DNA from: Couchioplanes caeruleus | GTDB lineage: Bacteria; Actinomycetota; Actinomycetes; Mycobacteriales; Micromonosporaceae | Length of the DNA stretch: 64,000 nucleotides | Assembly (NCBI RefSeq): GCF_003751945.1 | Contig: NZ_RJKL01000001.1 | Span: forward strand, 3,224,001 to 3,288,000 | Direction: 5' to 3' | Shown: positions 50,778 through 64,000 of the stretch, in pieces | Numbering within the stretch: the first letter of the stretch is position 1 | How the letters are laid out: every line of letters starts with the position of its first letter | Position numbers and translations under genes: made by a program | The notes under the pieces: generated by a model | Seen by the model: the letters and a program-made list of their open reading frames with translations, nothing else | The model's database searches: none | Told to the model about the DNA's origin: nothing

Positions 50778-52067
50778 TCATGGCAGGGTGGTGACGAGAT
50801 CCACCTGGAAGATCGGCAGCTTGCCCAGCTTGCGGTACGCCGCCAGCGACTCCGGCGTCGCATCGACCGACGACTCCCGCCCCTCCTGGTTGTGCGGGGT
50901 GTCGAAGTGGACCATGGCCCGGATCTGCGGGAAGCGCCGGATCTGCCGTCCCACCTCGCGGTAGAACGCCGCCTTGTGGCCGGGATTCTTCTTCGACGAC
51001 CACACGCCCCACTCGGCCACCATCAGCGGCTTGCCGGGGTGCTTCCCGGTCGCCCAGTTGTAGAAGCCGGGCCAGGTGGGCCGGGCCGAGGACTGGCGGT
51101 TGAGCAGTTCATCGAAGTCGCCGTGGCCGTAGCCGGGGTCGCTGTACGCGTACGTGTCGAAGCCGATCCAGTCCACCACGTCGTCGCCGGGATACATGTC
51201 GCTGAACCACTTCTGGCTGGTGTGAGGCACGTACGCCATATGCACCAGCACCGTCACCAGGTTGTCGACCCCGTCCGCACGCAGCCGCTGGACGACGTAG
51301 CGGAACATGCGGGAGTAGTCCTCGGCCGTGTAGCCCGAGCCGGCCTTCTCCTTGACGTTGTCCTCAGCCTCGTGATGGACGGTGAAGAAGAACTCCTCCG
51401 GGAACTCCTTCTTGATGTGGGCGGCGAGCTTGTCCAGGAACTTGTCCGTCGCCTTGTCACCCTGGGCGATCTTCGCCCATGACGTGCCGCGCGGCTTCCA
51501 GTTGAGGAAGAGGATGCGCTCCCGGCCCGGCTCGCGGGCGATCGCCACCTCCTCCTTGGTCGGGAAGAGCTGGTTGTTGCCGCGGTGGTACGCGTGGAAC
51601 ACGTCCTGGTGCCGCTCGGTCTTCTCCTCGAAGCGCGCCAGTGCCTGCCTGCCCCGCGTGTCCGTGAAGGCTCCCGGCGCAACACCCCAGAGGACCCCAC
51701 AGGTGGGAACGAGCTTCTTCCCTGTACGGCAGGAGCCGGCCGGCGCCGGTGCCGCGGGGCCGGCGGAGGCGGTCCCGGCGGCGGAGGGTGACGCCGACGG
51801 CGGCAGCGAGGGTGCGCCGGAGGCCGGCGGCGCCCCGGGCAACATCGGCACGCCCGGCTCGACGGGCGGCGGCAGTCCCCGGGACGCCCCCGGCGCCGAG
51901 CTCGCGGCCGGCCCGGGAAGCACGACCGGGTCGGGGCCGTAGGGCAGGCCGATCTGGTCGACGCCCCCGGTCCACGCCCACGAAAGGGTGGCGACGACCG
52001 AAATGCTGAAGACGGTCGTGATGGCGGCGAGGTGCAGGAAGCGGCTGCGGCGCGGTCCACGTCTCAC
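50778..52067 (-). CDS. GH26-like glycoside hydrolase, membrane-anchored
   Basis: The 429-residue protein has an N-terminal signal anchor (about 10-32), a Pro/Ala/Ser linker (about 45-112) and a TIM-barrel hydrolase domain. The acid/base glutamate is Glu233 in HHEAEDN and the nucleophile is Glu352 in MVAEWGVWSS, the GH26 pattern. GH26 enzymes cut beta-mannans and some mixed-linkage glucans; the substrate here is unknown. It is divergent from the PAPS synthase gene, at the left end of the polysaccharide locus, so it may process the exported glycan. A paralogue lies at 61354. Confidence 0.82.
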   Translation of the reverse strand: MRRGPRRSRFLHLAAITTVFSISVVATLSWAWTGGVDQIGLPYGPDPVVLPGPAASSAPGASRGLPPPVEPGVPMLPGAPPASGAPSLPPSASPSAAGTASAGPAAPAPAGSCRTGKKLVPTCGVLWGVAPGAFTDTRGRQALARFEEKTERHQDVFHAYHRGNNQLFPTKEEVAIAREPGRERILFLNWKPRGTSWAKIAQGDKATDKFLDKLAAHIKKEFPEEFFFTVHHEAEDNVKEKAGSGYTAEDYSRMFRYVVQRLRADGVDNLVTVLVHMAYVPHTSQKWFSDMYPGDDVVDWIGFDTYAYSDPGYGHGDFDELLNRQSSARPTWPGFYNWATGKHPGKPLMVAEWGVWSSKKNPGHKAAFYREVGRQIRRFPQIRAMVHFDTPHNQEGRESSVDATPESLAAYRKLGKLPIFQVDLVTTLP

Positions 52068-52222
52068 GATCGCCCAGTATCGGCATTAAAATCCCTTTTG
52101 TCGACTACCCGACCTCGCGGAGCCACGTCGACCGTCGAGAACGGACGGACCCCGAGCCCCGCTCGACCTTGAGGAGCCCGGCTGCGAAACTGTCCTCAAA
52201 GTCACTGCAGGGGGAGTCTTAG

Positions 52223-53746
52223 GTGAACGACGGTTCTGTGCTGCCCGAGGACGTCATGCGTGACGCGCCGACGTACACGCCGCGCGCGCACGAACTCGCC
52301 GACCTCGAGCTGCTGCTGGCCGGGGCGTACACGCCGCTGACCGGCTTCCTCGGCCGCGCCGACCTGCAGTCCGTGCGCCGGCGCGGCCGCCTCACCGACG
52401 GCACGTCGTGGCCGGTCGCGGTCACCCTGGAGATTCCCGCCGAGCTCGCCAACGGCCTGGACCTCGACGATCCACTGCGGCGCACGGTCGTGCTGACCGA
52501 CCCCGAGGGCGCGCCGGTCGCCGCCATCGAGATCTCCGACGCCTGGCCCACGACCGAGGGACGGTACGCGGTCGGCGGCACGGTGCGCCGGATGGGCGAC
52601 GGCGGGCACGGCCCGTTCCAGCGGCTGCGCCGGACCCCCGAGGAGGTCAAGGCGCTGCTGCCGCCCGGGCGCGTCCTCGGCGTCATCGCGGACCGCCCGC
52701 TGCACCGCCCCCAGCTCGCGCAGATCGCGCACGCCGCCCGTACCCTCGCCGCCCACCTGCTGATCTTCGTACCCGTCACCGGTCCGGGCCCCGACGGTCT
52801 GCCCCCGGAGGCGCTGGTCCGCGCGATCTTCGCGGCCCGCGACCGGATGCCGCCGGCGACCATCGTCGCGGTCCCGCTGATGACCCGGGGCGACGAGATG
52901 CGCGACGCGCTGCTGCGGGCGCGGGTCGCCGCCGCGTACGGCGTCACCCACGTGCTGTCCACCGGCGAGATGCTCTCCGGCGCCGGGCTGCGGGTGCTGG
53001 TGCCCCGCGAGCTGGCGTACGACAACCGCGACGGCCAGTGGCGCTGGCGCGACGACATCCCCCCGCGCAACCGCCGCCTGGCGATGTCCGCCGCGGAGAT
53101 CGACGACCTGCTGGACCGGGGGTTCCCGCTGCCCGAGTGGCACACCCCGCCCGCGGTCGCCAAGGAGCTGACCCGGGTCCGCCCGCCGCGTCGGCACCGG
53201 GGGCTGGTCGTCTTCTTCACCGGCTTCTCCGGCTCCGGAAAGTCCACGATCGCCCGCGGGCTGGCCGACACCCTGCGCGAGAGCGGCGAGCGGACCATCA
53301 CGTTCCTCGACGGCGACGTGGTGCGCCGGGAGCTCTCGGCCGGGTTGGGGTTCAGCCGGGCCGACCGGGACCGCAACGTGCGACGCATCGGCTGGGTGGC
53401 GGCCGAGGTCGCGCGCCACCGCGGCATGGCGGTCGCGTGCCCCATCGCCCCGTACGAGGACGCCCGCGCGGCCGTGCGGAAGATGGCGGCCGACGCCGGG
53501 GCCGGCTTCGTGCTGGTGCACGTGGCGACCCCGCTGGAGGTCTGCGAGCAGCGCGACCGCAAGGGTCTCTACGCCCGCGCCCGGGCCGGTCAGCTCCGCG
53601 GCATGACGGGCGTCGACGACCCCTACGAGGTGCCCACCGACGCCGAGCTGGTGGTCGATACCACGGGCATGACGGTGCCGGAGGCCATCGATCTCGTGCT
53701 GGCCCACCTCGTGGAGAACGGCTGGGTGGAGCCGGAGATGAAGTAA
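52223..53746 (+). CDS. PAPS synthase: APS kinase with a degenerate sulfurylase domain
   Basis: The 507-residue protein joins an ATP-sulfurylase-like domain (about 1-320) to an APS kinase (about 325-507). The kinase is intact: P-loop GFSGSGKST near 333-341, FLDGDVVRRELSAGLGFSRA, CPIAPYEDAR and DRKGLYARARAGQLRGM. The sulfurylase half lacks QxRNPxHxxH (here ADRPLHRPQLAQ) and the GRDHAG loop (here STGEMLSGAG), so it probably cannot make APS. The enzyme would phosphorylate APS to PAPS, the sulfate donor for the two sulfotransferases in this locus. GGGGGAG precedes the GTG. Confidence 0.85.
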   Translation: MNDGSVLPEDVMRDAPTYTPRAHELADLELLLAGAYTPLTGFLGRADLQSVRRRGRLTDGTSWPVAVTLEIPAELANGLDLDDPLRRTVVLTDPEGAPVAAIEISDAWPTTEGRYAVGGTVRRMGDGGHGPFQRLRRTPEEVKALLPPGRVLGVIADRPLHRPQLAQIAHAARTLAAHLLIFVPVTGPGPDGLPPEALVRAIFAARDRMPPATIVAVPLMTRGDEMRDALLRARVAAAYGVTHVLSTGEMLSGAGLRVLVPRELAYDNRDGQWRWRDDIPPRNRRLAMSAAEIDDLLDRGFPLPEWHTPPAVAKELTRVRPPRRHRGLVVFFTGFSGSGKSTIARGLADTLRESGERTITFLDGDVVRRELSAGLGFSRADRDRNVRRIGWVAAEVARHRGMAVACPIAPYEDARAAVRKMAADAGAGFVLVHVATPLEVCEQRDRKGLYARARAGQLRGMTGVDDPYEVPTDAELVVDTTGMTVPEAIDLVLAHLVENGWVEPEMK

Positions 53747-53851
53747 CCGGTCGAGGCGGAGTAGTTACGCATCGGCGTACGGGCCGTTTACCCCTCGGGG
53801 GCGAAACGCCCGATTGCCGACAACTCCGCCTGCGAAAGGGCCGCCGTACCG

Positions 53852-55600
53852 ATGGAAGCGACTCGCCCGGTGTCCGCCGACCTCTCCCACTACCTGGGGG
53901 TGTTCCGCCGGCACTGGTGGGTCGTGGTGGCCGCCACCGGGGCCGGCCTCGGTATCGGTGCCGCCATCACCCAGACCCTGCCCAGGGTCTACGAGTCCTC
54001 CACATCGGTGCTCGTGCAGGCCGTCGACCAGGACACCAACGCCTCCGGTGGCCGCACCAAGGGCACGATCAACCTCGACACCGAGGCCCAGCTCGTCGGC
54101 TCCGGCGCGGTGGCGGCGAAGGCGGCGGCGCTGCTGCGTTCCCCCGTCTCGCCGATCGAGCTGGCCAAGCGCGTCTCGGTCGAGGTGCCGGCCAACACCA
54201 CGGTGCTGGTGATCCGCTTCGAGGCCGACAACCCGAAGGACGCCCAGGCCGGGTCGCACGCGTTCGCGGAGGCGTACCTGCGCAACCGGGAGGAGAGTGC
54301 ACGCTCCGGTCTGGACCAGCGGATCAAGACGCTCAGCCTCAAGGTCAAGCAGCTCACCACGACGCTGACGAGCCTCAACAACCGGCTGGCGAAGGCGGCC
54401 AGCGGCAGCTCTGAGCGCAGCAACCTGGAGAGCCTGCGAGGCAACTCGCAGAACCAGCTCAACAATCTGACCGGCCGGCTCAACGAACTGACCACGGCCA
54501 CCGTCGGCGCGGGCAACATCATCAGCGACGCCCGCGAGCCGGAGGAGCCCACCAGCCCGAACACGATGCTCAACATCGCGGCCGGCGCGATGATCGGCCT
54601 GATCGCCGGGCTCGGCCTGGCGTTCGTCCGGGAGCGCTTCGACCGTCGGCTGCGGACCGCCGCCGACGTCCGGGACCGCGGCCGCGTGCCGGTGCTCGCC
54701 GCGCTGGACGAGCGCACCACCCCGCACTTCGACGACGTGCTGCAGCCGTACGGTCCGGGCGGCCGGGTCTTCAACCGCCTCCGCAACGAGATCCTGGCCA
54801 GCCTGAACGCGGGCGATCAGATCATCGTCGTCACCGGCGCCAGCCGCGGCTCGGCCACCACGCTCGTCGCCGCCAACCTGGCCGCCGCGCTGGCGCGTAC
54901 GGGCAGCGACGTGGTCCTCATGGGCGCGCATCTGCCGGACAGCGTCCTCGACGCCGCGCCGCTGGCCCGCATGCTCGGGGTCTCCGCGATGCCCGGCCTG
55001 TCCGACCTGCTCGCCGGCCGCATCGGGCTCGCGAAGGCGTTGCAGCGGACCCCGCGGATTCCGTCGCTGCGGGTCATCACGACCGGTGGCGCCGCGACCG
55101 CGGCGGGCCTGATGCAGTCGCAGCGGCTGCGCGACACGCTGGAGGCGCTGCGCCGGCAGACCGGGTACGTCGTCATCGAGGCCCCGTCCACCAACAGCAG
55201 CGCCGACGCGCAGAGCCTGGCCAGCCTCGCCGACGCCGCCATCCTCGCGGTCGAGCTGCGCCGGGCGAAGCGGCCCGCCCTGCTCGACGCGGCCGAACAG
55301 CTCAGCCGGGTCGGCACGCCGTTGCTCGGCGCCGTGGTGTTGCCCCAGCTCACCGGCGTGCGGCGGTCCGCGGCCGAGGAGATCCTGCCGGTGGTGGCGC
55401 TGAGCGCGCAGAAGCCGGCCGAGCCCGCGGCCATCGACGATGACCGCACCCAGCCGCTGCGCCTGCCGCAGGGCGGCCCGGTCCGGCCACCCCGGCAGGG
55501 CGACGGCACCGAGGACGTCACCGCGGTGATCGACCTGACCCCTGCGGCCAAGCCCTCCCCCACCGCGGCCCGGATCACCGAGAAGCCGGACGACAAGTGA
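53852..55600 (+). CDS. Wzz/BY-kinase-like polysaccharide regulator lacking ATPase motifs
   Basis: The 582-residue protein has the layout of an actinobacterial tyrosine autokinase: span (about 21-42), Wzz-like extracytoplasmic part with a coiled coil (about 145-215), second span (about 231-252), then a P-loop-like domain. Walker A reads TGASRGSATT (about 328-337), with no lysine, and the later motifs read VVLMGAHLPD and VVIEAPST where BY-kinases have aspartates. It is probably a pseudokinase that sets chain length or organises export. GAAAGGG precedes the ATG. Its stop overlaps the next GTG by four bases. Confidence 0.85.
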   Translation: MEATRPVSADLSHYLGVFRRHWWVVVAATGAGLGIGAAITQTLPRVYESSTSVLVQAVDQDTNASGGRTKGTINLDTEAQLVGSGAVAAKAAALLRSPVSPIELAKRVSVEVPANTTVLVIRFEADNPKDAQAGSHAFAEAYLRNREESARSGLDQRIKTLSLKVKQLTTTLTSLNNRLAKAASGSSERSNLESLRGNSQNQLNNLTGRLNELTTATVGAGNIISDAREPEEPTSPNTMLNIAAGAMIGLIAGLGLAFVRERFDRRLRTAADVRDRGRVPVLAALDERTTPHFDDVLQPYGPGGRVFNRLRNEILASLNAGDQIIVVTGASRGSATTLVAANLAAALARTGSDVVLMGAHLPDSVLDAAPLARMLGVSAMPGLSDLLAGRIGLAKALQRTPRIPSLRVITTGGAATAAGLMQSQRLRDTLEALRRQTGYVVIEAPSTNSSADAQSLASLADAAILAVELRRAKRPALLDAAEQLSRVGTPLLGAVVLPQLTGVRRSAAEEILPVVALSAQKPAEPAAIDDDRTQPLRLPQGGPVRPPRQGDGTEDVTAVIDLTPAAKPSPTAARITEKPDDK

Positions 55601-56973
55601 CCCTGGTCGTCCCGGGCGCGAAGCAGCGGGCGGCACACGGCACGGCACCGCAACGACCCATCTCACTGCCGGCGTGGCCGGTCGCGAGCGTGCTCGCGCT
55701 CTATCCCCTGTGGTGGGCGCTGGGCCTCGGCGTCCTGATCTTCCCGATCATGGCCGTGCCGATGCTGGTCCTCCTGCTGCGGCGCCGGGCCGCCGGGCGC
55801 CCGCTGCGGCTGCCGCCCGGGTTCGGCTGGTGGGCGCTGTTCCTCGCGGCCGTCGTCATCAGCATCGCCGCGCTCGGCGCCGACCCGGCCGGGACGGTGG
55901 TCGAGCACGCGAGCGACCGCCTGGTCGCAGTCCTCTACCGGCTCTGCATGTACGCGTCCCTGACCATCCTGCTCGTCTACACCGGCAACCTCACCGAGGA
56001 GGAGCTGCCCCGCCGTCGCCTGGCGAAGCTGCTCGGCTGGCTCTTCGTGGTGACGGTGGCCGGGGGCCTGCTGGGCATGGTCGCAGGCCGGTTCGAGTTC
56101 ACCTCGCCGGTGGAGTGGTTGCTGCCGGGCGGCATACGCAGCAAGGGATTCGTGCAGTCGCTGGTGCACCCGTACGCGGCGCAGATCATGGACCTGGTCG
56201 GCGGCGAGAAGCCTCGCCCGGCCGCGCCCTGGGGTTACACCAACACCTGGGGCAACAACTTCTGCCTCCTGATGGGCTGGCTGGTGGTGGCCGCCTGGGC
56301 GACCCGCCGTACCCGGGACAAGGTGCTCGCGGTGCTGTGCCTCGCCGTCGCGATCGTGCCCGCGGTCGTCTCCCTCAACCGCGGGCTGTGGATCGGCATC
56401 GGGGTCGTCGTCTGCTACGTGGCGGCCCGCTACGTGCTGATGGGTCGTTTGTGGATCATCGGCGCGGTCGTGCTGGCCGCCGCCGGGCTCGTCCTCGCCC
56501 TGCTGGCCACCCCGCTGGGCGACGTGGTCGACGCGCGGCTGGACAACGGCAAGTCCAACGGCGTGCGCTCGTTCCTCATCGACCGGGCCATGGACGGGTT
56601 CGTGGACTCGCCGGTCGTGGGCTACGGCTCGACCCGCAACACGATCGGCGGCCGCAATTCGATCGCCGTCGGCGAGAGTTCGGAGTGCGAGCGCTGCGGC
56701 AACTTCACCGTCGGCGGCAACGGCCAGCTCTGGCAGCTCATGTACGCCCACGGCACCGTCGGCACCGTCGCCTACCTGACCTTCTTCGGGTTCGGCCTGT
56801 GGCGCTTCCGGCGGGACCGCACGCCGATCGGGATCGCCGGCAGCGCCGCCATCGTGAGCTCGTTCGCGGCGATGCTCTGGTACAACGCGATCCCCACCCC
56901 CCTGGCGTTCATGTTCCTGGCCTACGCGCTGCTCTGGCGCAACCACATCGAGGGGGACGCACATGCCCGTTAA
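55597..56973 (+). CDS. O-antigen ligase/polymerase-like membrane protein
   Basis: The 458-residue protein has about ten to twelve membrane spans and a large extracytoplasmic loop (about 315-395, with GYGSTRNTIGGRNS and CERCGNFTVGGNGQLW). This pattern fits the Wzy/WaaL O-antigen polymerase-ligase superfamily. The SLNRGLWIGI motif near 255-264 is typical. It likely polymerises or ligates the repeat unit outside the membrane. It is coupled to the Wzz-like gene upstream and overlaps the next gene by 11 bases. Confidence 0.82.
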   Translation: MTLVVPGAKQRAAHGTAPQRPISLPAWPVASVLALYPLWWALGLGVLIFPIMAVPMLVLLLRRRAAGRPLRLPPGFGWWALFLAAVVISIAALGADPAGTVVEHASDRLVAVLYRLCMYASLTILLVYTGNLTEEELPRRRLAKLLGWLFVVTVAGGLLGMVAGRFEFTSPVEWLLPGGIRSKGFVQSLVHPYAAQIMDLVGGEKPRPAAPWGYTNTWGNNFCLLMGWLVVAAWATRRTRDKVLAVLCLAVAIVPAVVSLNRGLWIGIGVVVCYVAARYVLMGRLWIIGAVVLAAAGLVLALLATPLGDVVDARLDNGKSNGVRSFLIDRAMDGFVDSPVVGYGSTRNTIGGRNSIAVGESSECERCGNFTVGGNGQLWQLMYAHGTVGTVAYLTFFGFGLWRFRRDRTPIGIAGSAAIVSSFAAMLWYNAIPTPLAFMFLAYALLWRNHIEGDAHAR

Positions 56974-58189
56974 GACCGCGCCGGCCGAGCTGACCGCCGG
57001 CGACTCGGCGCTGCGCGCGCAGTACCTGGCCGAGGTGCTCGCTCTCCTCTACCCGGCGCCCTGCTCCACCGACGACCGGCGCGGCGAGCCGATCGCCGAG
57101 TACCTCGTCGTCCCGGACGCCCGGCGGCCCCGGCTGCTGGTGCCGACCACGTCCCGCCGGGTCGCCGCCGCCGCCGTCCGCCGCTATGCCGAGCCGCAGT
57201 CCCGCGCCGCCCGGCTCAAGCGCGACGCGGTGGTGGCCGCCGTGCGTACCGGCGCCTCCAGCGTGCTGCTGCGCGACCGGGTGCGGGTCACCGGGCCGGC
57301 GCGGGAGAGCATCGACGGCTACCTGCGCGAGGCGCTGGGCCGGGACCTTTCGATGAGCATCCACATCGGACCGGCTCGGGCCAATCGCAAGCCGGTGCTG
57401 CAGCTCATCAGCCCCGACGGCGAGACCTTCGGCTTCGGCAAGCTCGGCACCGGACCGCTGACCCAGCGCCTGGTGCGGGCCGAGACCGCCGCGCTGACCG
57501 CGCTCGGCACGGTGGGGCTGTCCAAGCTCACCGTGCCCCGGGTGCTGCATGCCGGGCAGTGGCGCGGCTCCCAGGTGCTGATCCAGTCGGCTCTGCCGGT
57601 GTGGCTTCCGCGGGCACCGCTGACCCCGCGCCGGCTCACCGCGGCGATGTACGAGATCGCCGGGTGCTGCGGGTACACCAACGGCACGCTGGTCGGCAGC
57701 GCCTACTGGGCCGAGCTGCGCGGTCGCCTCGCGGCGGTGGCCGACCGCTCCGAGGGAGTCGAGCTGGCCGCGGCCGCGGAGCTGCTCGCGGCGCACGCCG
57801 GAGACTCCGTGCTGCGCTACGGCTCCTGGCACGGCGACTGGGCGCCGTGGAACATGGCGAATCTCGCCGACGCGCTGCTGGTCTGGGACTGGGAGCGGTT
57901 CACCAAGGGCGTGCCGGTCGGCTTCGACGCCATCCACTACGAGTTGCAGCGCCGGATCCAGTCCAGCGGGGACGCGGAAGGCGCGGTGGAGACCACCGTA
58001 CGCCGCGCCGGTGAGCTCCTCCATCCGTTCCGGGTCGCGCCGGAGGCCCGGGAGCTGACCGCCCTGCTCTACCTCGTCGACCTCGCCGCTCGTTATCTGG
58101 CCGACCGGCAGGCCGAGGCGGGCGCCCGCCTCGGCGTGCTGGGGACGTGGCTGCTGCCCGTACTGATTCGAAGGGTGGAGAAGCTCTGA
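56963..58189 (+). CDS. Kinase-fold protein (aminoglycoside-phosphotransferase-like)
   Basis: The 408-residue protein has a weak N-terminal lobe and a clear catalytic loop, HGDWAPWNMA near 289-298, followed by VWDWERF near 308-314. These match the HGDxxPxN and D-x-D motifs of APH/ChoK-like kinases. The substrate in a polysaccharide locus may be a sugar or a lipid-linked sugar. No signal peptide or membrane span is seen. It is coupled to both neighbours (11-base overlap before, TGATG after). No precise family could be named. Confidence 0.7.
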   Translation: MPVKTAPAELTAGDSALRAQYLAEVLALLYPAPCSTDDRRGEPIAEYLVVPDARRPRLLVPTTSRRVAAAAVRRYAEPQSRAARLKRDAVVAAVRTGASSVLLRDRVRVTGPARESIDGYLREALGRDLSMSIHIGPARANRKPVLQLISPDGETFGFGKLGTGPLTQRLVRAETAALTALGTVGLSKLTVPRVLHAGQWRGSQVLIQSALPVWLPRAPLTPRRLTAAMYEIAGCCGYTNGTLVGSAYWAELRGRLAAVADRSEGVELAAAAELLAAHAGDSVLRYGSWHGDWAPWNMANLADALLVWDWERFTKGVPVGFDAIHYELQRRIQSSGDAEGAVETTVRRAGELLHPFRVAPEARELTALLYLVDLAARYLADRQAEAGARLGVLGTWLLPVLIRRVEKL

Positions 58190-59067
58190 TGGATGTCCGC
58201 AAGGTTCCGTCGCCCGTCAAGCGGGTCGTGCACCTCGGTTCGCGCTCGTACGGCAGGCTGACCGCGCCCCGCCGGATGACGCCGTCGTTCCTCATCTGCG
58301 GCGGGCAGCGCTGCGGCACCACCTCGCTCTACCGGGCGCTCGCCGCGCATCCGGCGGTGCTCAAGGCGGTGCTGCACAAGGGCGTGCACTACTTCGACGT
58401 GTCGTACGAGCGCGGCATGTCCTGGTACAAGGCGCACTTCCCCACGCAGCGGCAGGCCGACAAGGTCTACGACACGTACGGGGTCCCCGCGCAGACGTTC
58501 GAGTCGAGCCCCTACTACATGTACCACCCGCAGGCCGCCGCACGGATCGCCGCCGACCTGCCCGGCACGAAGCTCGTGGTGCTGGTCCGCGACCCGGTGG
58601 AACGGGCGTACTCGCAGCACCACCACGAGGTGGCGCGGGGCTTCGAGAACGAGCGCAACTTCGGCAACGCCCTTGCTCTGGAGCCCGCCCGGCTGCACCG
58701 CCAGGAGGAGCGGCTCGCGGCGGATCCGGCCTACTACTCGTTCGCGCATCAGCACCAGGCCTACCGCGCCCGTGGCGAGTATGCCCGCTACCTGAGCGTC
58801 ATGGCGCAGCACGTCGGCCGGGAACGCATCCACGTGGTGGAGAGCGAGCGGTTCTTCCGCGAGCCCGAACAGGTCTACGACGAGGTGTGCGCGTTCCTCG
58901 GCCTGCCGATCAACCTCGGCCATCCGCCCTTCGAGCGGCACAACGCCCGGCCTCGACAGTCCGACATGGACCCCGGCATCCGCCGGGAGCTGTCGAGCCA
59001 CTACGCCTCGCACGACGAGGCCCTGATGACGTGGCTGAGTCGCGTACCCATCTGGCGTTCCTCATGA
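58189..59067 (+). CDS. Sulfotransferase
   Basis: The 292-residue protein is a PAPS-dependent sulfotransferase. The 5' phosphosulfate loop is ICGGQRCGTTSLYRAL near 36-51 and the 3' phosphate-binding block is LVVLVRDPVERAYSQHHHE near 127-145. It belongs to the carbohydrate (heparan/chondroitin-type) sulfotransferase group by its general layout. The ATG overlaps the preceding stop (TGATG). It likely sulfates a sugar of the exported polymer in the cytosol, with PAPS from the enzyme at 52223. Confidence 0.9.
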   Translation: MDVRKVPSPVKRVVHLGSRSYGRLTAPRRMTPSFLICGGQRCGTTSLYRALAAHPAVLKAVLHKGVHYFDVSYERGMSWYKAHFPTQRQADKVYDTYGVPAQTFESSPYYMYHPQAAARIAADLPGTKLVVLVRDPVERAYSQHHHEVARGFENERNFGNALALEPARLHRQEERLAADPAYYSFAHQHQAYRARGEYARYLSVMAQHVGRERIHVVESERFFREPEQVYDEVCAFLGLPINLGHPPFERHNARPRQSDMDPGIRRELSSHYASHDEALMTWLSRVPIWRSS

Positions 59068-60626
59068 CCGTCGTCGCCACCGAGGCTCCACCGGAGCGGG
59101 GTACGCGGGGGGCCGCCCGCGGTGGCCTGGCGAACATGGCGGGTTCGGCGCTGGCTGGCGGCACCGGAGTCGTGGTCACCTGGATCGTCGCGCGGGGCCT
59201 CGGCGCCGAGCAGGCCGGCGCCTTCTTCGCGGCCACCGCGGCGTTCGTCCTCGTCGGCGGGTGCGCGAAGCTCGGCACCCAGACCGGCCTGGTGTACTGG
59301 CCCGCGCGGCTGCGGGCCACCGGGCGTGAGCATCTGCTCGGCGCCTGCCTGCGGACCGGCCTGACGCCGGTGCTCGTGCTGGCGACCCTGCTGGGCGCCG
59401 CGATGTGGATCGCGGCGCCCTCCATCGCGCACCTGACCGCCGCCGGATCGCCGCACGTGGTCGCCGAGCACATCGCCGGGCTGCGGATCCTCGCGCTGTT
59501 CCTGCCCCTGCAGGCCCTGACCGACACGCTGCTGACGGCCACCCGCGGCTACAAGGCCATGCGCCCGACCGTGACCCTCGACCGCGTCCTGCGCAGCGCG
59601 CTGCAGTTGCTGTGCGTCGGCGCGGCCGGAGTGGCCACGCTCTGGGTCGGCGTCACGCTGCCCGCGTTCGCCCTGGCATGGGCGGTACCGTACCTGCCGG
59701 TGACGGTCCTGGCGGCCGTGGCGTTGCGCAGGATCTACCTGACCGGCAAGCCGGCGCGCTTCCGCAGCCGGCGCAGCGAGCGCCTCGACCTGCGCCGCGA
59801 CTTCTGGCGCTTCACCGGGCCACGCGCGCTGGCCAGCGTCGCCCAACTCGCCCTGCAACGCGTCGACGTGTTGCTGGTGGCGGCGCTCGCCGGACTGGCG
59901 CCGGCCGCGGTCTACGCGGTCGCCGGGCGCTTCGTCGTCCTGATCCAGTTCGCCAACCAGGGCATCTCCCAGTCGGTGCAGCCGCGGCTCGCGGAGGCGC
60001 TGGCGGTCGGCGACCGGCGGACCGCGAACCACCTGTACCAGACGGCGACCGGCTGGCTCGTGCTCGTCACCTGGCCGATCAACCTGATGGTGATCCTCCT
60101 GGCCCCGGTCTACCTCGGACTGTTCGGCCCGGGGTACCGCTCGGGCACACCGGTGGTCGTGGTGCTGGCCTGCGCGATGCTCTTCGCCACCGGCTGCGGC
60201 ATGGTCGACATGGTGCTCGCCATGGCCGGACGCACCTCGTGGAACCTCGCCAACGTCCTGGTCGCCCTGGTCGTGACGGTCGGCCTGGACGTGCTCCTGA
60301 TTCCCCGGTACGGCGCGCTGGGCGCCGCGATCGGGCTGGCCTGCGCGCTCATGGCGAACAACCTGCTGCCGCTCGTTCAGGTCGGCCGGGCCGCGCGGCT
60401 GCACCCGTTCGGCCGCGGCACGCTCGCCGCCGCCGCCCTGTCGGTGGCGTGCTTCGGCGTGCTCCCGAGAGCGGTGCTCGCGGTGGCCGGCTCCGGTCCG
60501 GCCGCCCTGGCGCTCGCGTCCGGGCTCGCCGTGGCCGCGTTCGGCGCCGGCGCGTGGCTGCTGCGCGGCCGGCTCGCCCTCGGGGCCTTCAATCCCCGCC
60601 AACTCTCGTCAAGGAGGACCGATTGA
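59064..60626 (+). CDS. Polysaccharide flippase (Wzx/MATE-like)
   Basis: The 520-residue protein has about 12-14 membrane spans and is of the MOP flippase superfamily, similar to RfbX/Wzx. Features include LGAEQAGAFFAATAAFVLVG near the start, FANQGISQSVQPRLAEAL in the middle and LIPRYGALGAAIGLA near the C-terminus. It likely moves the lipid-linked unit across the membrane. The ATG overlaps the sulfotransferase stop by four bases, and its stop overlaps the next TTG start by four. Confidence 0.9.
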   Translation: MTVVATEAPPERGTRGAARGGLANMAGSALAGGTGVVVTWIVARGLGAEQAGAFFAATAAFVLVGGCAKLGTQTGLVYWPARLRATGREHLLGACLRTGLTPVLVLATLLGAAMWIAAPSIAHLTAAGSPHVVAEHIAGLRILALFLPLQALTDTLLTATRGYKAMRPTVTLDRVLRSALQLLCVGAAGVATLWVGVTLPAFALAWAVPYLPVTVLAAVALRRIYLTGKPARFRSRRSERLDLRRDFWRFTGPRALASVAQLALQRVDVLLVAALAGLAPAAVYAVAGRFVVLIQFANQGISQSVQPRLAEALAVGDRRTANHLYQTATGWLVLVTWPINLMVILLAPVYLGLFGPGYRSGTPVVVVLACAMLFATGCGMVDMVLAMAGRTSWNLANVLVALVVTVGLDVLLIPRYGALGAAIGLACALMANNLLPLVQVGRAARLHPFGRGTLAAAALSVACFGVLPRAVLAVAGSGPAALALASGLAVAAFGAGAWLLRGRLALGAFNPRQLSSRRTD

Positions 60627-61354
60627 CCACCGACTACACCAAGGTGTTCCAGGACGCGGACGCAGTCGACAAGTACGAGCACGTGACGTACGCGCCGGAC
60701 AGCTACGCCTCGCAGATCAACGAGCGGCAGCAGGCGTACCTGCGCAAGCTCGTGCAGCGGGAGTTCGGCGCGAAGCTGCCCGTCCAGCATGACTTCGCCT
60801 GCGGGACCGGCCGCGCCATCCGGACCCTGCACGGCCTGGTCCGCGAGGCGCACGGCTACGACACCTCGGCCGAGATGATGGCCAAGGCCGAGGAGGTCGG
60901 CTCGCGGGCGCGGTGGCACCAGATCCCCCCGGACGGCCCGGTGCCGAACCCGGTGCCGGCCGGGCACCCGGCGATCGTCACCATGTTCCGGCTGTTGCTC
61001 AACGTCGACGAGGCGGTCCGCGACCGGGCCGTCGCCTTCGCCGCGAAGGCGCTGCCGACGCCGGACGCCGGGCTGCTCGTGGTGGAGAACCACGGCAACG
61101 CCGGTTCGCTGCGCCACCTGCGGGCCCGGCGGCACTCCGGTGAGCGCTGGTTCGCCGAGCTTTCCCATGCCGAGGTCGAGCGGCTGCTGGACCGGCACGG
61201 CTTCGAGATCGCCGAGCGGCGCGGCTTCTCCATGCTCACCGAGTCGCTGAACGGCAATCCGCTGGCCCGGGCCGCCGACGCGGCGGCGCGCGCGCTGCCC
61301 GGCACGGACGGGTTCGCGGTCAACGTGCTCTACGTGGCGCGCCGGAAGAAGTAA
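60623..61354 (+). CDS. SAM-dependent methyltransferase
   Basis: The 243-residue protein is a class I methyltransferase with HDFACGTGRAIRTLHGL near 53-69 as the SAM-binding motif and VREAHGYDTSAEMM as motif II. The start is a TTG, supported by a perfect AAGGAGG at 60611-60617. It may methylate a sugar in the polymer. It is coupled to the flippase upstream and to the GH26-like gene downstream (TAATG). Confidence 0.87.
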   Translation: MTTDYTKVFQDADAVDKYEHVTYAPDSYASQINERQQAYLRKLVQREFGAKLPVQHDFACGTGRAIRTLHGLVREAHGYDTSAEMMAKAEEVGSRARWHQIPPDGPVPNPVPAGHPAIVTMFRLLLNVDEAVRDRAVAFAAKALPTPDAGLLVVENHGNAGSLRHLRARRHSGERWFAELSHAEVERLLDRHGFEIAERRGFSMLTESLNGNPLARAADAAARALPGTDGFAVNVLYVARRKK

Positions 61355-62358
61355 TGGCCGCACGCCGCGCTGCCGCCCTGCTGGGGCTGATCGTGCTCGT
61401 GCTCGCCGGCTGCACCTCGCACCGGCGGGCCGAGCCCGCTCCGACGCCGTCGCCCGATCTGACGAGCCCGCCGCCCGCGGTCGCGGTGAACCCGGGGCCG
61501 TTCGAGGCGGGACCGTTCGAGGCGCCGTCGTCCGGCGCGTACCTGGGCGCGTGGATCAAGCCGGAGGCGCTGACCCATGCGGGCCGGGTGGAGGCCGTGG
61601 ACGGCCTCGAACGCAACCTCGGCCGGCGGCTGGACATCGTCAACACGTACCGCCGCTTCGAGCAGCTCGTCGGCACCGAGTCGGACGCGGAGTTCCTGGC
61701 CCAGGACGCCACGCTGATGGTGAGCTGGGCGACCGGCGACAACCGCTCGATCGTCGCGGGCGAGCACGACCGGCTGATCCGCCAGCAGGCCCGCGCGATC
61801 CGCAAGGTGCGCAAGCCGCTGCTGCTGCGGATCCGCTGGGAGATGGACCGGCCCAACCTGCGGGCCACGATGTGGTCCGGCGAGGATTACATCGCCGCGT
61901 ACAAACACATCCGGGAGATCTTCGCGCAGGAGCGTACGAAGAACGTCTCGTGGGTCTGGTGCCCGACGGCGGAGGGCTTCATCCGCGGCGACGCGCCGGC
62001 CTTCTACCCCGGCGACGACCACGTCGACTGGACCTGCGTGGACGTGTACGCCGGCAACCTCTTCCAACCGATAGGCCGGCTCATGGGCCCGTTCCTGCAG
62101 TGGGCCGCCCAGCGCCCCAAGCCGATCGTCATCGGCGAGTTCGGCGTGGCGAAGGCCTGGGGACCGGACGGGCGGGCGGCCTGGCTGCGCGACGCCCAGC
62201 GCACCTTCAAGGCCAACCCGCAGATCAAGGCGGTCGTGTACTTCGAGAGCGATCCCGAGGGCAACGGGCCGAACCAGCAGTTCCAGCTCACCGGGGACCG
62301 GCCCGCCTTCCAGGCCTTCGCCCGGCTGACGAAGGACCCCTACTTCAATCCGGAGTGA
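61354..62358 (+). CDS. GH26-like lipoprotein
   Basis: The 334-residue product has a lipoprotein signal with lipobox LAGC (Cys20), a Pro-rich linker and a hydrolase domain. The acid/base is Glu163 in RIRWEMDRPN and the nucleophile Glu262 in IGEFGVAKAWG. It is a paralogue of the protein at 50778, more compact and anchored through lipid. It likely trims or releases the exported glycan. The ATG overlaps the methyltransferase stop by one base. Its 3' end overlaps the convergent WecG-like gene by 14 bases. Confidence 0.85.
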   Translation: MAARRAAALLGLIVLVLAGCTSHRRAEPAPTPSPDLTSPPPAVAVNPGPFEAGPFEAPSSGAYLGAWIKPEALTHAGRVEAVDGLERNLGRRLDIVNTYRRFEQLVGTESDAEFLAQDATLMVSWATGDNRSIVAGEHDRLIRQQARAIRKVRKPLLLRIRWEMDRPNLRATMWSGEDYIAAYKHIREIFAQERTKNVSWVWCPTAEGFIRGDAPAFYPGDDHVDWTCVDVYAGNLFQPIGRLMGPFLQWAAQRPKPIVIGEFGVAKAWGPDGRAAWLRDAQRTFKANPQIKAVVYFESDPEGNGPNQQFQLTGDRPAFQAFARLTKDPYFNPE

Positions 62359-63142
62359 CCTGCGCGCGCCGGCTCGCCTGGGCCAGCAGCCGGAGCGCGT
62401 ACGGGGCGTCGTGCTTGAGGTATCTCCCGGCCAGCCGGCGCGGCTCGGTGCCGATCCGGTGCGCCCATTCCAGGCCGGTGCGCTGCATCCAGCGCGGCGC
62501 CCGTTCCACGTCGCCGGCCACGAAGTTGACCGCCGCGCCGCAGCCCACGAACCAGGCACGGGGCATGGTCTCCCGCAGCCGGGTGACGACCTCCTCCTGC
62601 TTGGGGAAGCCTAGGCCGACGAAGACCAGGTCGGGTTCGGCGCCGGCGATCTTGGCGCACACGTCCGCATATGCCTGCTCGTCGGACTCGAAGCCGAAGG
62701 GTGGGCAGAGCGTGCCCGCGACGCGCAGGCCCGCGCATTCGGCGGCGAGCCGGTCCGCAGCCCGGGTGGCGCCGTCCGGAACGCCGTCGTTCTCCGGCCG
62801 CCCGCCGACGACGAAGACGGACCGGCGGTCGTGCCCGAGGCCGCGCGACAGCGACCAGATGAGGCTGCTGCCGGCGACCCGTTCGGGCAGCGGCGTGCCG
62901 CTCAGCTTGCTGGCCCAGACGAGCGGCATGCCGTCGGCGACGATGAGGTCGGCGTCGTCGAGGTAGCCGCGGACCCGGTCGTCCACCCGCGACTGCCGCA
63001 GGATGTCGACGTTGGGAGTGACGATGCGGCCGCCGCGGCCGGCCGCGATCGCCTCGCGGACCACGGCGACCACCTCGCCCTCGGTCATCGGGTCGAAACC
63101 GGTTCCGTCGAGCTGGACACGGTCGAAAGCGTCGATTGACAA
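62345..63142 (-). CDS. WecG/TagA/CpsF-family glycosyltransferase
   Basis: The 265-residue protein carries the family's TPNVDILRQS, DADLIVADGMPLVWAS and VFVGLGFPKQEEVV motifs. Members transfer a sugar (often N-acetylmannosamine) to a lipid-linked acceptor in capsule or teichoic-acid synthesis. The start is a TTG at 63142 with AAGGAGG seven bases upstream. It is divergent from the second sulfotransferase; a 10-bp palindrome lies between them. Confidence 0.9.
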   Translation of the reverse strand: MSIDAFDRVQLDGTGFDPMTEGEVVAVVREAIAAGRGGRIVTPNVDILRQSRVDDRVRGYLDDADLIVADGMPLVWASKLSGTPLPERVAGSSLIWSLSRGLGHDRRSVFVVGGRPENDGVPDGATRAADRLAAECAGLRVAGTLCPPFGFESDEQAYADVCAKIAGAEPDLVFVGLGFPKQEEVVTRLRETMPRAWFVGCGAAVNFVAGDVERAPRWMQRTGLEWAHRIGTEPRRLAGRYLKHDAPYALRLLAQASRRAQVTPD

Positions 63143-63164
63143 CGCAACGCCTCCTTCAGGCTTG

Positions 63165-63194
63165 TTCGCTCGTTATAGGAGCGAAACGAGCGAA
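63165..63194. promoter_or_regulatory. Palindrome between the WecG-like and sulfotransferase genes
   Basis: TTCGCTCGTT at 63165-63174 and AACGAGCGAA at 63185-63194 are perfect inverted arms with a 10-base spacer, so the half-sites are 20 bases apart centre to centre, two helical turns. It lies in the 63-base gap between divergent starts, over the likely promoter of the sulfotransferase (TATAGG near 63174). Confidence 0.75.
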
Positions 63195-63205
63195 GGCGGT
63201 CAGAA

Positions 63206-64000
63206 GTGGCACACGTCGTCTATCTGGGCGGATTAGGACGAAGCGGCACGACGCTCGTGGAGCGCCTCCTCGGCGAGCTGCCCTCGGTGTGCACGCTGGG
63301 CGAGATCGTCCACCTCTGGCAGCGCGACATTCGGGACAACGAGCGGTGCGGCTGCGGTGCCCGGTTTGCGGCCTGCACCTTCTGGAAGCGGGTCGGCGAG
63401 CGTGCGTACGGCGGATGGCACAATGTGGACGTCGACCGCGTGCACGCGCTGCGCGACACGGTCGAGCGCACCCGCTTCATCCCTCGCCTCGCCGCCACCC
63501 ACCTGCCCCCGGCGCAGCTCGCCGACGTCCGCGAGTACGCAACCTTCTACTCCCGCGTGTACGCGGCCGCGGCCGAGGTCTCCGGCGCGTCGGTGGTCGT
63601 CGACTCGTCCAAGCACAGCGCACTGGCCCACGTGCTGCGCTGGGCGGACGACGTGGACCTGCGGGTCGTGCACGTGGTGCGGGACGCCCGCGGGGTCGCG
63701 TACTCCTGGACCAAGACCGTCACCCGGCCGGAGACCGACGGCGGCGACGAGATGACCCGCTACTCCCCCGGACGCTCCGCCCTGCTCTGGAACGCGCACA
63801 ACGCGGCCTTCGGGCTGCTCGCCCGCCGCGGGGTGCCGGTCCGGCGGATCCGCTACGAACAGTTCCTCACCGATCCCCGGGCGGCGCTGCGCGACCTGGC
63901 CGCCTACGCCGGCGTTCCGGTCGCCGAGGCCGACCTCGGCTTCCTCGGCGACGGGTACGCGGACCTGGGGGTCAGCCACAGCGCCGCCGGCAACCCGATG
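63206..64000 (+). CDS. Second sulfotransferase, 3' end beyond the window, with a TTA codon
   Basis: The reading frame from the GTG at 63206 runs to the window end with no stop, 265 codons. VVYLGGLGRSGTTLVERLLG near 4-23 is the PAPS 5' loop; VVVDSSKHSALAHVLRWA and LRVVHVVRDARGVAYSW follow as the 3' phosphate block. NERCGCGARFAAC near 45-57 carries three cysteines. Codon 10 is TTA (63233-63235), the only in-frame TTA I found in the genes of this window, so full expression may need the UAA-anticodon tRNA. GAAGGCGG precedes the GTG. It diverges from the WecG-like gene. Confidence 0.88.
   Translation, partial: MAHVVYLGGLGRSGTTLVERLLGELPSVCTLGEIVHLWQRDIRDNERCGCGARFAACTFWKRVGERAYGGWHNVDVDRVHALRDTVERTRFIPRLAATHLPPAQLADVREYATFYSRVYAAAAEVSGASVVVDSSKHSALAHVLRWADDVDLRVVHVVRDARGVAYSWTKTVTRPETDGGDEMTRYSPGRSALLWNAHNAAFGLLARRGVPVRRIRYEQFLTDPRAALRDLAAYAGVPVAEADLGFLGDGYADLGVSHSAAGNPM

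Follow-up and report, generated by a model that had tools for sequence, protein, structure and literature searches.

The closest described counterpart of the DNA considered here is the wps-1 cluster of Actinoplanes missouriensis (wpsA to wpsK, AMIS_7280-7380, together with AMIS_7390), published in June 2026, for which a sulfated polysaccharide of the sporangium matrix was proposed, awaiting experimental verification (PMC13390465). The ten genes other than wpsD were deleted singly, and nine of the ten deletions gave abnormal sporangia and reduced spore release, the effect of wpsE being mild; the wpsB (sulfotransferase 2) mutant formed normal-looking sporangia and released about one-tenth of the spores, and wpsD was dispensable (PMC13390465). 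Deletion of AMIS_7390, which the paper links to sulfur amino acids, led to a severe sporangium defect that its authors called unexpected, the mutant being macroscopically unchanged on two media, and deleting either sulfotransferase gene or AMIS_7390 impairs sporangia or spore release (PMC13390465). Here we describe a locus of Couchioplanes caeruleus (GCF_003751945.1, contig NZ_RJKL01000001.1), found in a window, that is, the whole stretch of DNA analyzed, of 64,000 nucleotides (3,224,001-3,288,000, forward strand; positions below are those of the window unless a contig is named). In our assessment this locus is probably a counterpart of wps-1 that would make a sulfated surface or spore-matrix polysaccharide, with its adenosine 5'-phosphosulfate (APS) kinase as the source of 3'-phosphoadenosine 5'-phosphosulfate (PAPS).

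Composition of the locus and comparison with wps-1

Based on Pfam matches and reading of the frames, the locus comprises 12 genes, of which ten lie whole inside the window, one is cut at its edge and one lies just beyond it. They are listed here with the wps-1 names of their counterparts (GH26 and GT2 denote glycoside hydrolase family 26 and glycosyltransferase family 2):

50778..52067, minus strand: GH26a, a GH26 glycoside hydrolase (PF02156, E 9.5e-08)
52223..53746, plus strand: APS kinase, counterpart of AMIS_7390 (PF01583, E 1.4e-54; PDB 3cr8, E 1.3e-96)
53852..55600, plus strand: Wzz/Wzc-like chain-length protein, WpsK (PF02706, E 4.4e-08; PF13807, E 7.3e-08)
55597..56973, plus strand: Wzy polymerase or O-antigen-ligase-like protein, WpsJ (PF04932, E 1.8e-05, 25 bits against a cut-off of 31.7; synteny)
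56963..58189, plus strand: putative kinase of the APH/fructosamine-3-kinase (FN3K) fold, WpsI, a gene that the original prediction had left unnamed (predicted structure, Foldseek, motif)
58189..59067, plus strand: sulfotransferase 1, WpsH (PF13469, E 2.1e-14; PF00685, E 3.9e-14)
59064..60626, plus strand: Wzx/MATE-type flippase, WpsG (PF01554, E 1.1e-10; PF01943, E 1.4e-06)
60623..61354, plus strand: S-adenosylmethionine-dependent methyltransferase, WpsF (PF13489, E 1.4e-06; TTG start after AAGGAGGA)
61354..62358, plus strand: GH26b hydrolase, WpsE (PF02156, E 5.8e-05; GH26 endoglucanase H structures, E 1.3e-15)
62345..63142, minus strand: WecG/TagA/CpsF-family glycosyltransferase, WpsC (PF03808, E 4.4e-52, residues 64-241)
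63206..64156, plus strand, with the window ending at 64000: sulfotransferase 2, WpsB (PF13469, E 1.9e-12)
64156..65070, plus strand, beyond the window: GT2 glycosyltransferase, WpsA (PF00535, E 1.2e-20)

Together these genes form a polysaccharide locus of the Wzx/Wzy type that also encodes an APS kinase, a pair of PAPS-type sulfotransferases and a pair of GH26 proteins, and the set for the Wzx/Wzy-dependent pathway is complete, with flippase, polymerase, co-polymerase and glycosyltransferases together at one place. The Wzy call rests partly on synteny because the Wzy_C match falls under its Pfam cut-off. Successive overlaps of 4, 11, 1, 4, 4 and 1 bases join the seven genes from Wzz to GH26b (53852-62358), and the reading of a chained operon therefore holds; GH26b and the WecG-type gene overlap by 14 bases, and GT2 overlaps sulfotransferase 2 by 1 base. 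On the same contig beyond the window edge come the end of sulfotransferase 2 (64156), GT2 (64156-65070), a DeoR regulator and then GalT. The original prediction, which proposed a sulfated exopolysaccharide locus from the letters of the window, was accurate as to gene content, as all the genes that it named are present with intact open reading frames, and its chain of stop/start-joined genes from 53852 corresponds to the seven genes that overlap by 1-11 bases. Its suggestion to extend the sequence to the right yielded the rest of the locus, namely the end of sulfotransferase 2 and GT2. Both of the GH26 hydrolases that it counted were also found, one of them, GH26a, lying just to the left of position 52223, where the locus had been taken to begin.

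The gene types and their order are the same as in wps-1 (GT2, sulfotransferase, WecG, GH26, methyltransferase, Wzx, sulfotransferase, kinase-like, Wzy, Wzz and APS kinase), and the WecG domain spans residues 64-241 both in the host protein and in that of A. missouriensis. Unlike wps-1, the host locus is without wpsD (DUF4262) between GH26 and WecG, a gene that we did not count as defining because it is dispensable in A. missouriensis. GH26a is a neighbour in the host locus and stands outside the deletions described for wps-1 in the available part of that report (PMC13390465). By gene order, domains and the published description, the host locus appears to be the counterpart of wps-1.

Active-site columns were read from alignments whose rows had been pre-filtered by identity and length, and diverged members are therefore missing from them. 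In sulfotransferase 1 the R, G and T of the loop and the R and S of the 3' motif are identical in 91 of 91 rows, and in sulfotransferase 2 the loop R, S and G and the 3' motif R and S are identical in 74 of 74; we take these to be the 5'-phosphosulfate loop and the 3'-phosphate R...S motif, respectively. With their Pfam profiles and these PAPS-site motifs, both proteins have the features expected of PAPS-dependent sulfotransferases. The PDB matches of sulfotransferase 1 are headed by 3rnl, followed by heparan sulfate 3-O- and N-sulfotransferases. GH26a, whose gene is divergent to that of the APS kinase, has a hydrophobic N-terminus by eye and is probably exported, and GH26b has a lipoprotein signal, also by eye. 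At the positions that we assume to be catalytic, both columns of GH26a are Glu in 71 of 71 rows, and in GH26b one is Glu in all 74 rows and the other in 73 of the 74 (a single gap), so that both proteins combine the GH26 family profile with two catalytic glutamates. The Wzz-type protein (53852-55600) has kept a tyrosine-autokinase-like domain in which the Walker A motif is without its lysine, as it is in aligned relatives.

WpsI (408 residues) matched no Pfam or NCBIfam family, and a search of the PDB by sequence gave nothing better than E 0.72. Its AlphaFold2 model has a mean predicted local distance difference test score (pLDDT) of 88.8, and the nearest structures by Foldseek are FN3K, APH/aminoglycoside kinases, glucosamine kinase and maltokinase, the best row having a TM-score of 0.64 by target and 0.47 by query. 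The HGD, N and D.E residues are present in 83 of 84 rows, the remaining row being unreadable there; HGD...N and D.E are presumably the catalytic motif of the APH/FN3K fold. Because the predicted fold is nearest to kinases of fructosamine, aminoglycosides, glucosamine and maltose, the model suggests that WpsI is a small-molecule kinase, probably a sugar kinase, and that this is likelier than a protein kinase. The A. missouriensis protein was termed protein-kinase-like (PMC13390465).

Distribution in and beyond the Micromonosporaceae

Related loci were found by sequence words of Wzy, giving 74 named loci, which come from 23 named genera and an uncultured metagenome-assembled genome (MAG). The gene order, which the original prediction had proposed to compare among related genomes, is largely kept over the 74, and the locus is for that reason not a chance assembly. 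Matches at more than 40% identity were obtained for sulfotransferase 1 and Wzx in 71 loci each, GH26b in 69, GH26a in 64, the methyltransferase and GT2 in 63 each, WecG in 62, sulfotransferase 2 in 61, DeoR in 44 and wpsD in 15 (the L036 copy of the last being confirmed as DUF4262), where some of the absences are contig ends and others are not. GH26a is thus a conserved neighbour of the locus. The APS kinase lies inside the fetched stretch in 70 of the 74, and in the other four (L020, L068, L074 and L080) the contig stops less than 1.5 kb from the Wzz match. It is on the opposite strand in two of the 70 (L082 and L083), of which L082 is a different kind of locus.

In order to follow the locus across the family, Wzy (E 1e-70 or better) and sulfotransferase 1 (E 1e-85 or better) were counted by hand in 250 genomes, with cut-offs that were set after seeing the two-humped distribution of scores. 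Both genes were present in 162 genomes and neither in 79, Wzy alone in one and sulfotransferase 1 alone in eight. The sole genome with Wzy only (G094) is fragmented, and those with the sulfotransferase only comprise six of the seven g34 genomes together with G063 (77% complete) and G066. In the genus labelled g4, 12 of 62 genomes have both genes and 50 neither. It is important to note that counts of this kind are inflated by common ancestry; inside g4, g23 and g24 the pattern of both genes or neither does not rest on a single event. Independent variation of the neighbouring genes, which had been raised as an argument against one functional locus, was therefore not seen for the two genes tested, with 241 of the 250 genomes concordant. 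The rarity originally claimed for a sulfated exopolysaccharide locus of this kind has to be given up, as the locus is frequent within the family and occurs in further families, and the proposal is already published (PMC13390465). The APS kinase is linked to the locus in part of the family only.

Two types of region depart from this pattern. Both fetched g34 regions, L094 (G034:C1:3703000-3722999) and L095 (G060:C1:1831000-1850999), have the arrangement APS kinase, sulfotransferase 1, DeoR, GalT and no Wzx or Wzy matches; this is possibly a remnant of the locus or a separate use of sulfation. Forty-nine g4 genomes have weaker Wzy matches only, and six of their regions were fetched (L100-L105). 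All six have matches to Wzz, Wzy, Wzx, GT2 and sulfotransferase 1, none has sulfotransferase 2 and two have GH26. In three of them the kinase is within the stretch, and in the remaining three it lies just outside, at 11-12 kb from sulfotransferase 1; four of the six lack a match to the kinase or to GH26 within the stretch. As judged by these matches, L100-L105 contain the locus in a diverged form.

A profile of the WpsI-type kinase was used at higher ranks. At the level of the order it matched 68 of 298 genomes, 14 of them outside the family, and all 14 regions outside the family, some on short contigs, have a sulfotransferase 1 homologue near the kinase. At the level of the phylum it matched 15 of 346 genomes, of which 13 are outside the order, eight with strong (E 1e-56 or better) and five with weak matches. 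Seven regions from six of the eight strong genomes (G506 and G763 were left out of the fetched regions) all contain sulfotransferase 1. The weak regions (L150-L154) were not counted as instances of the locus, four having no sulfotransferase match and L152 weak matches only. The core of WpsI-type kinase, sulfotransferase, Wzx and Wzy recurs outside the family, with the APS kinase nearby in one of the 14 order-level regions (L132). C. caeruleus has a second locus (L128, contig 1, ~6380400-6388620) with Wzz, GT2, Wzy, Wzx, a sulfotransferase 1 homologue and a kinase on the opposite strand. In its makeup L128 resembles the diverged g4 version.

Likely source of sulfate and likely product

By Pfam, the APS kinase protein consists of PUA_2, ATP-sulfurylase and APS-kinase domains, and 3cr8 is its closest PDB match. 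Its P-loop is retained in 71 of 71 aligned rows, and in the same number of rows the sulfurylase motif (HxxH) is lost by replacement of the second His by Gln. It looks like a two-domain enzyme with an intact kinase and a degenerate, apparently dead ATP-sulfurylase half, so that the PAPS-forming enzyme of the original prediction stands as regards the kinase but not the sulfurylase. This protein is the single match to PF01583 in the host genome. CysD and CysN, encoded elsewhere, both pass their NCBIfam cut-offs and constitute a separate ATP sulfurylase, in which CysN, by our reading, ends without a kinase part. Because the sulfurylase site is lost in all 71 rows and the genome has this sole APS kinase, the supply of PAPS for sulfation appears to be its likeliest role. 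In mycobacteria APS goes to cysteine via CysH and PAPS to sulfotransferases (PMC4373884). The host CysH, encoded outside the window, scores 220 bits with the APS reductase model TIGR02055 (cut-off 235.3) and 171.6 with the PAPS reductase model TIGR02057 (cut-off 254.2). It carries CC and CxxC pairs, which we take to be a mark of APS reductases. The models thus lean toward the use of APS by CysH without settling it, and in the host a sulfation role for PAPS seems the likelier reading.

We envisage that the WecG-type and GT2 glycosyltransferases would assemble a short repeat unit on a lipid carrier, which would be decorated in the cytoplasm by the two PAPS-dependent sulfotransferases, the methyltransferase and probably the sugar kinase. 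Wzx would then flip the unit, Wzy polymerize it and Wzz set the chain length, and the two GH26 hydrolases, if exported, would trim the polymer. APS from CysDN would be converted by the adjoining APS kinase to PAPS as the sulfate donor, and the end product would be a sulfated surface or spore-matrix polysaccharide. In this scheme we infer the sugars of the polymer, the substrate of the kinase, the export and trimming action of the GH26 proteins and the role in the host. The genes themselves, their conserved active-site residues, the co-inheritance of Wzy and sulfotransferase 1 and the single APS kinase are observed directly, and the sulfated exopolysaccharide of the original prediction is supported as the best reading of the locus, its sulfate being deduced from the genes.

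Several points weigh against this reading. For both C. caeruleus and A. missouriensis sulfate in the polymer is a prediction from genes, and the latter species is not among the fetched loci. The substrates of the sulfotransferases are not readable from sequence, the PDB matches of sulfotransferase 2 are weak (tyrosine sulfotransferases and a polyketide synthase), and the host genome encodes several further Sulfotransfer_3 proteins beyond the locus pair, three of them scoring much higher. In addition, homologues of Wzz, Wzy, Wzx and the kinase are present in L082, from an uncultured actinobacterium MAG, with no match to sulfotransferase 1 or 2. As regards the APS kinase, every one of the 250 family genomes has a PF01583 match over the cut-off, those without the locus included (the weakest being G074, 8.9e-4), and the gene lies outside the 20 kb fetched in all 11 fuller loci of other genera (L096-L099 and L106-L112), is about 145 kb from the locus in G117 and is not near it in 13 of the 14 order-level regions. 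Being present in all the family genomes and unlinked in these loci of other genera, the APS kinase is a general source of PAPS, and the idea that it is dedicated to the locus was dropped on the same evidence. Although CysH is under both specific cut-offs, it is over those of generic models named PAPS reductase, and its closest PDB match, which has the same cysteine pairs, was deposited as a PAPS reductase. Conceivably, then, a lipid or a small secreted molecule is the target of the sulfotransferases, and the polymer made by the polysaccharide genes carries no sulfate. Some actinobacterial sulfotransferases act on antibiotics. The sulfolipid SL-1 is a precedent for a target other than a polysaccharide (PMC4373884), and the two g34 regions place sulfotransferase 1 next to an APS kinase with no Wzx or Wzy match. 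We regard this as unlikely, however, since sulfotransferase 1 overlaps both neighbours in the run from the kinase to Wzx, stays near a WpsI-type kinase in all of the order-level and strong phylum-level regions described above, and after 3rnl has heparan sulfate sulfotransferases as its PDB matches. The ubiquity of the APS kinase, its separation from the locus in the 11 loci of other genera and the generic CysH matches would also suit a gene for sulfur amino-acid supply, as PMC13390465 suggests, that is linked to the cluster incidentally. That, too, is unlikely in our view, given that the sulfurylase motif is lost while CysD and CysN are present, that CysH scores better with the APS reductase model, and that the AMIS_7390 mutant combined its severe sporangium defect with an unchanged macroscopic appearance (PMC13390465).

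The sulfated polysaccharide favored here is compatible, as far as chemistry is concerned, with another possibility, namely that the locus serves, in the host and in genera that form no sporangia, to make a polymer of hyphae or spore coats that has no relation to the sporangium matrix. To this we give slightly less than an even chance. Some other locus-bearing genera are not known to form true sporangia. Records of Couchioplanes, Catenuloplanes and Dactylosporangium contain the locus, and for these genera homologues of GimA and GimB, which degrade the matrix, were reported as missing (PMC12691653), whereas the sole phenotype that we found is sporangial (PMC13390465).

Upstream of three transcription units of the locus is a heptamer, GCGAAAC, of which there are six copies on both strands of 98 kb:

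52184..52190, plus strand: GCGAAAC, ending 32 bases before the APS kinase start, found unchanged in 25 of 44 regions from relatives
53801..53807, plus strand: GCGAAAC, ending 44 bases before Wzz, found unchanged in 33 of 49 regions from relatives
63181..63187, plus strand: GCGAAAC, ending 18 bases before sulfotransferase 2, inside the inverted repeat TTCGCTCGTT...AACGAGCGAA, found unchanged in 36 of 60 regions from relatives

Three shuffled regions have some 7-mer in common with a probability of 0.013, a value to be read with the fact that GCGAAAC was chosen after seeing the data. No second element at a fixed spacing from the heptamer was found, and because of this we did not call it a sigma-factor promoter; it is suggestive only, as a candidate promoter or operator element.

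Relation to known sulfated glycans

The core of Wzy, WpsI-type kinase, sulfotransferase and Wzx is found in most of the sampled Micromonosporaceae, is scattered in other families and is doubled in the host genome. We speculate, at slightly less than even odds, that it is older than the sporangium and marks a widespread class of Actinomycetota surface glycans that are sulfated and probably phosphorylated as well, the matrix of A. missouriensis being one late use. If the polymer is sulfated, sulfated glycans would belong to the usual surface materials of a large soil actinomycete group rather than being a cyanobacterial or marine oddity. If the proposed role of the APS kinase is true, the sporangium defect of the AMIS_7390 mutant would be a sulfation defect. 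The conserved gene set is also a source of new candidate glycan sulfotransferases.

Among bacterial sulfated exopolysaccharides, synechan of the cyanobacterium Synechocystis has known biosynthesis genes (PMC8205485), and sulfated capsules with structures and genomic loci were reported for the marine Vibrio sp. KMM 8419 (PMC11641403) and Cobetia marina (PMC11766843); all three are likened to the present locus by description only. As the Vibrio and Cobetia capsules exist, sulfated bacterial glycans are not confined to cyanobacteria, and they conflict with a remark in PMC13390465 that among bacteria only cyanobacteria have sulfated polysaccharides. A Streptomyces exopolysaccharide with reported sulfate content has also been described (PMC9911575). 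Among the matches listed in our literature search, which left most subscription papers outside its coverage, PMC13390465 alone concerned an actinomycete locus of this kind. In its architecture the host APS kinase is like the two-domain APS kinase of Thiobacillus denitrificans (3cr8) and the Entamoeba enzyme, in which a sulfurylase-like domain without the active-site motif is joined to an APS kinase (PMC13213808); unlike these enzymes, it adjoins a glycan locus. Compared with wps-1, the idea of a sulfated polysaccharide is already in print for a relative, and what is new here is the APS kinase argument, the distribution of the locus, the GH26a neighbour, the predicted fold of WpsI and the second locus in C. 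caeruleus.

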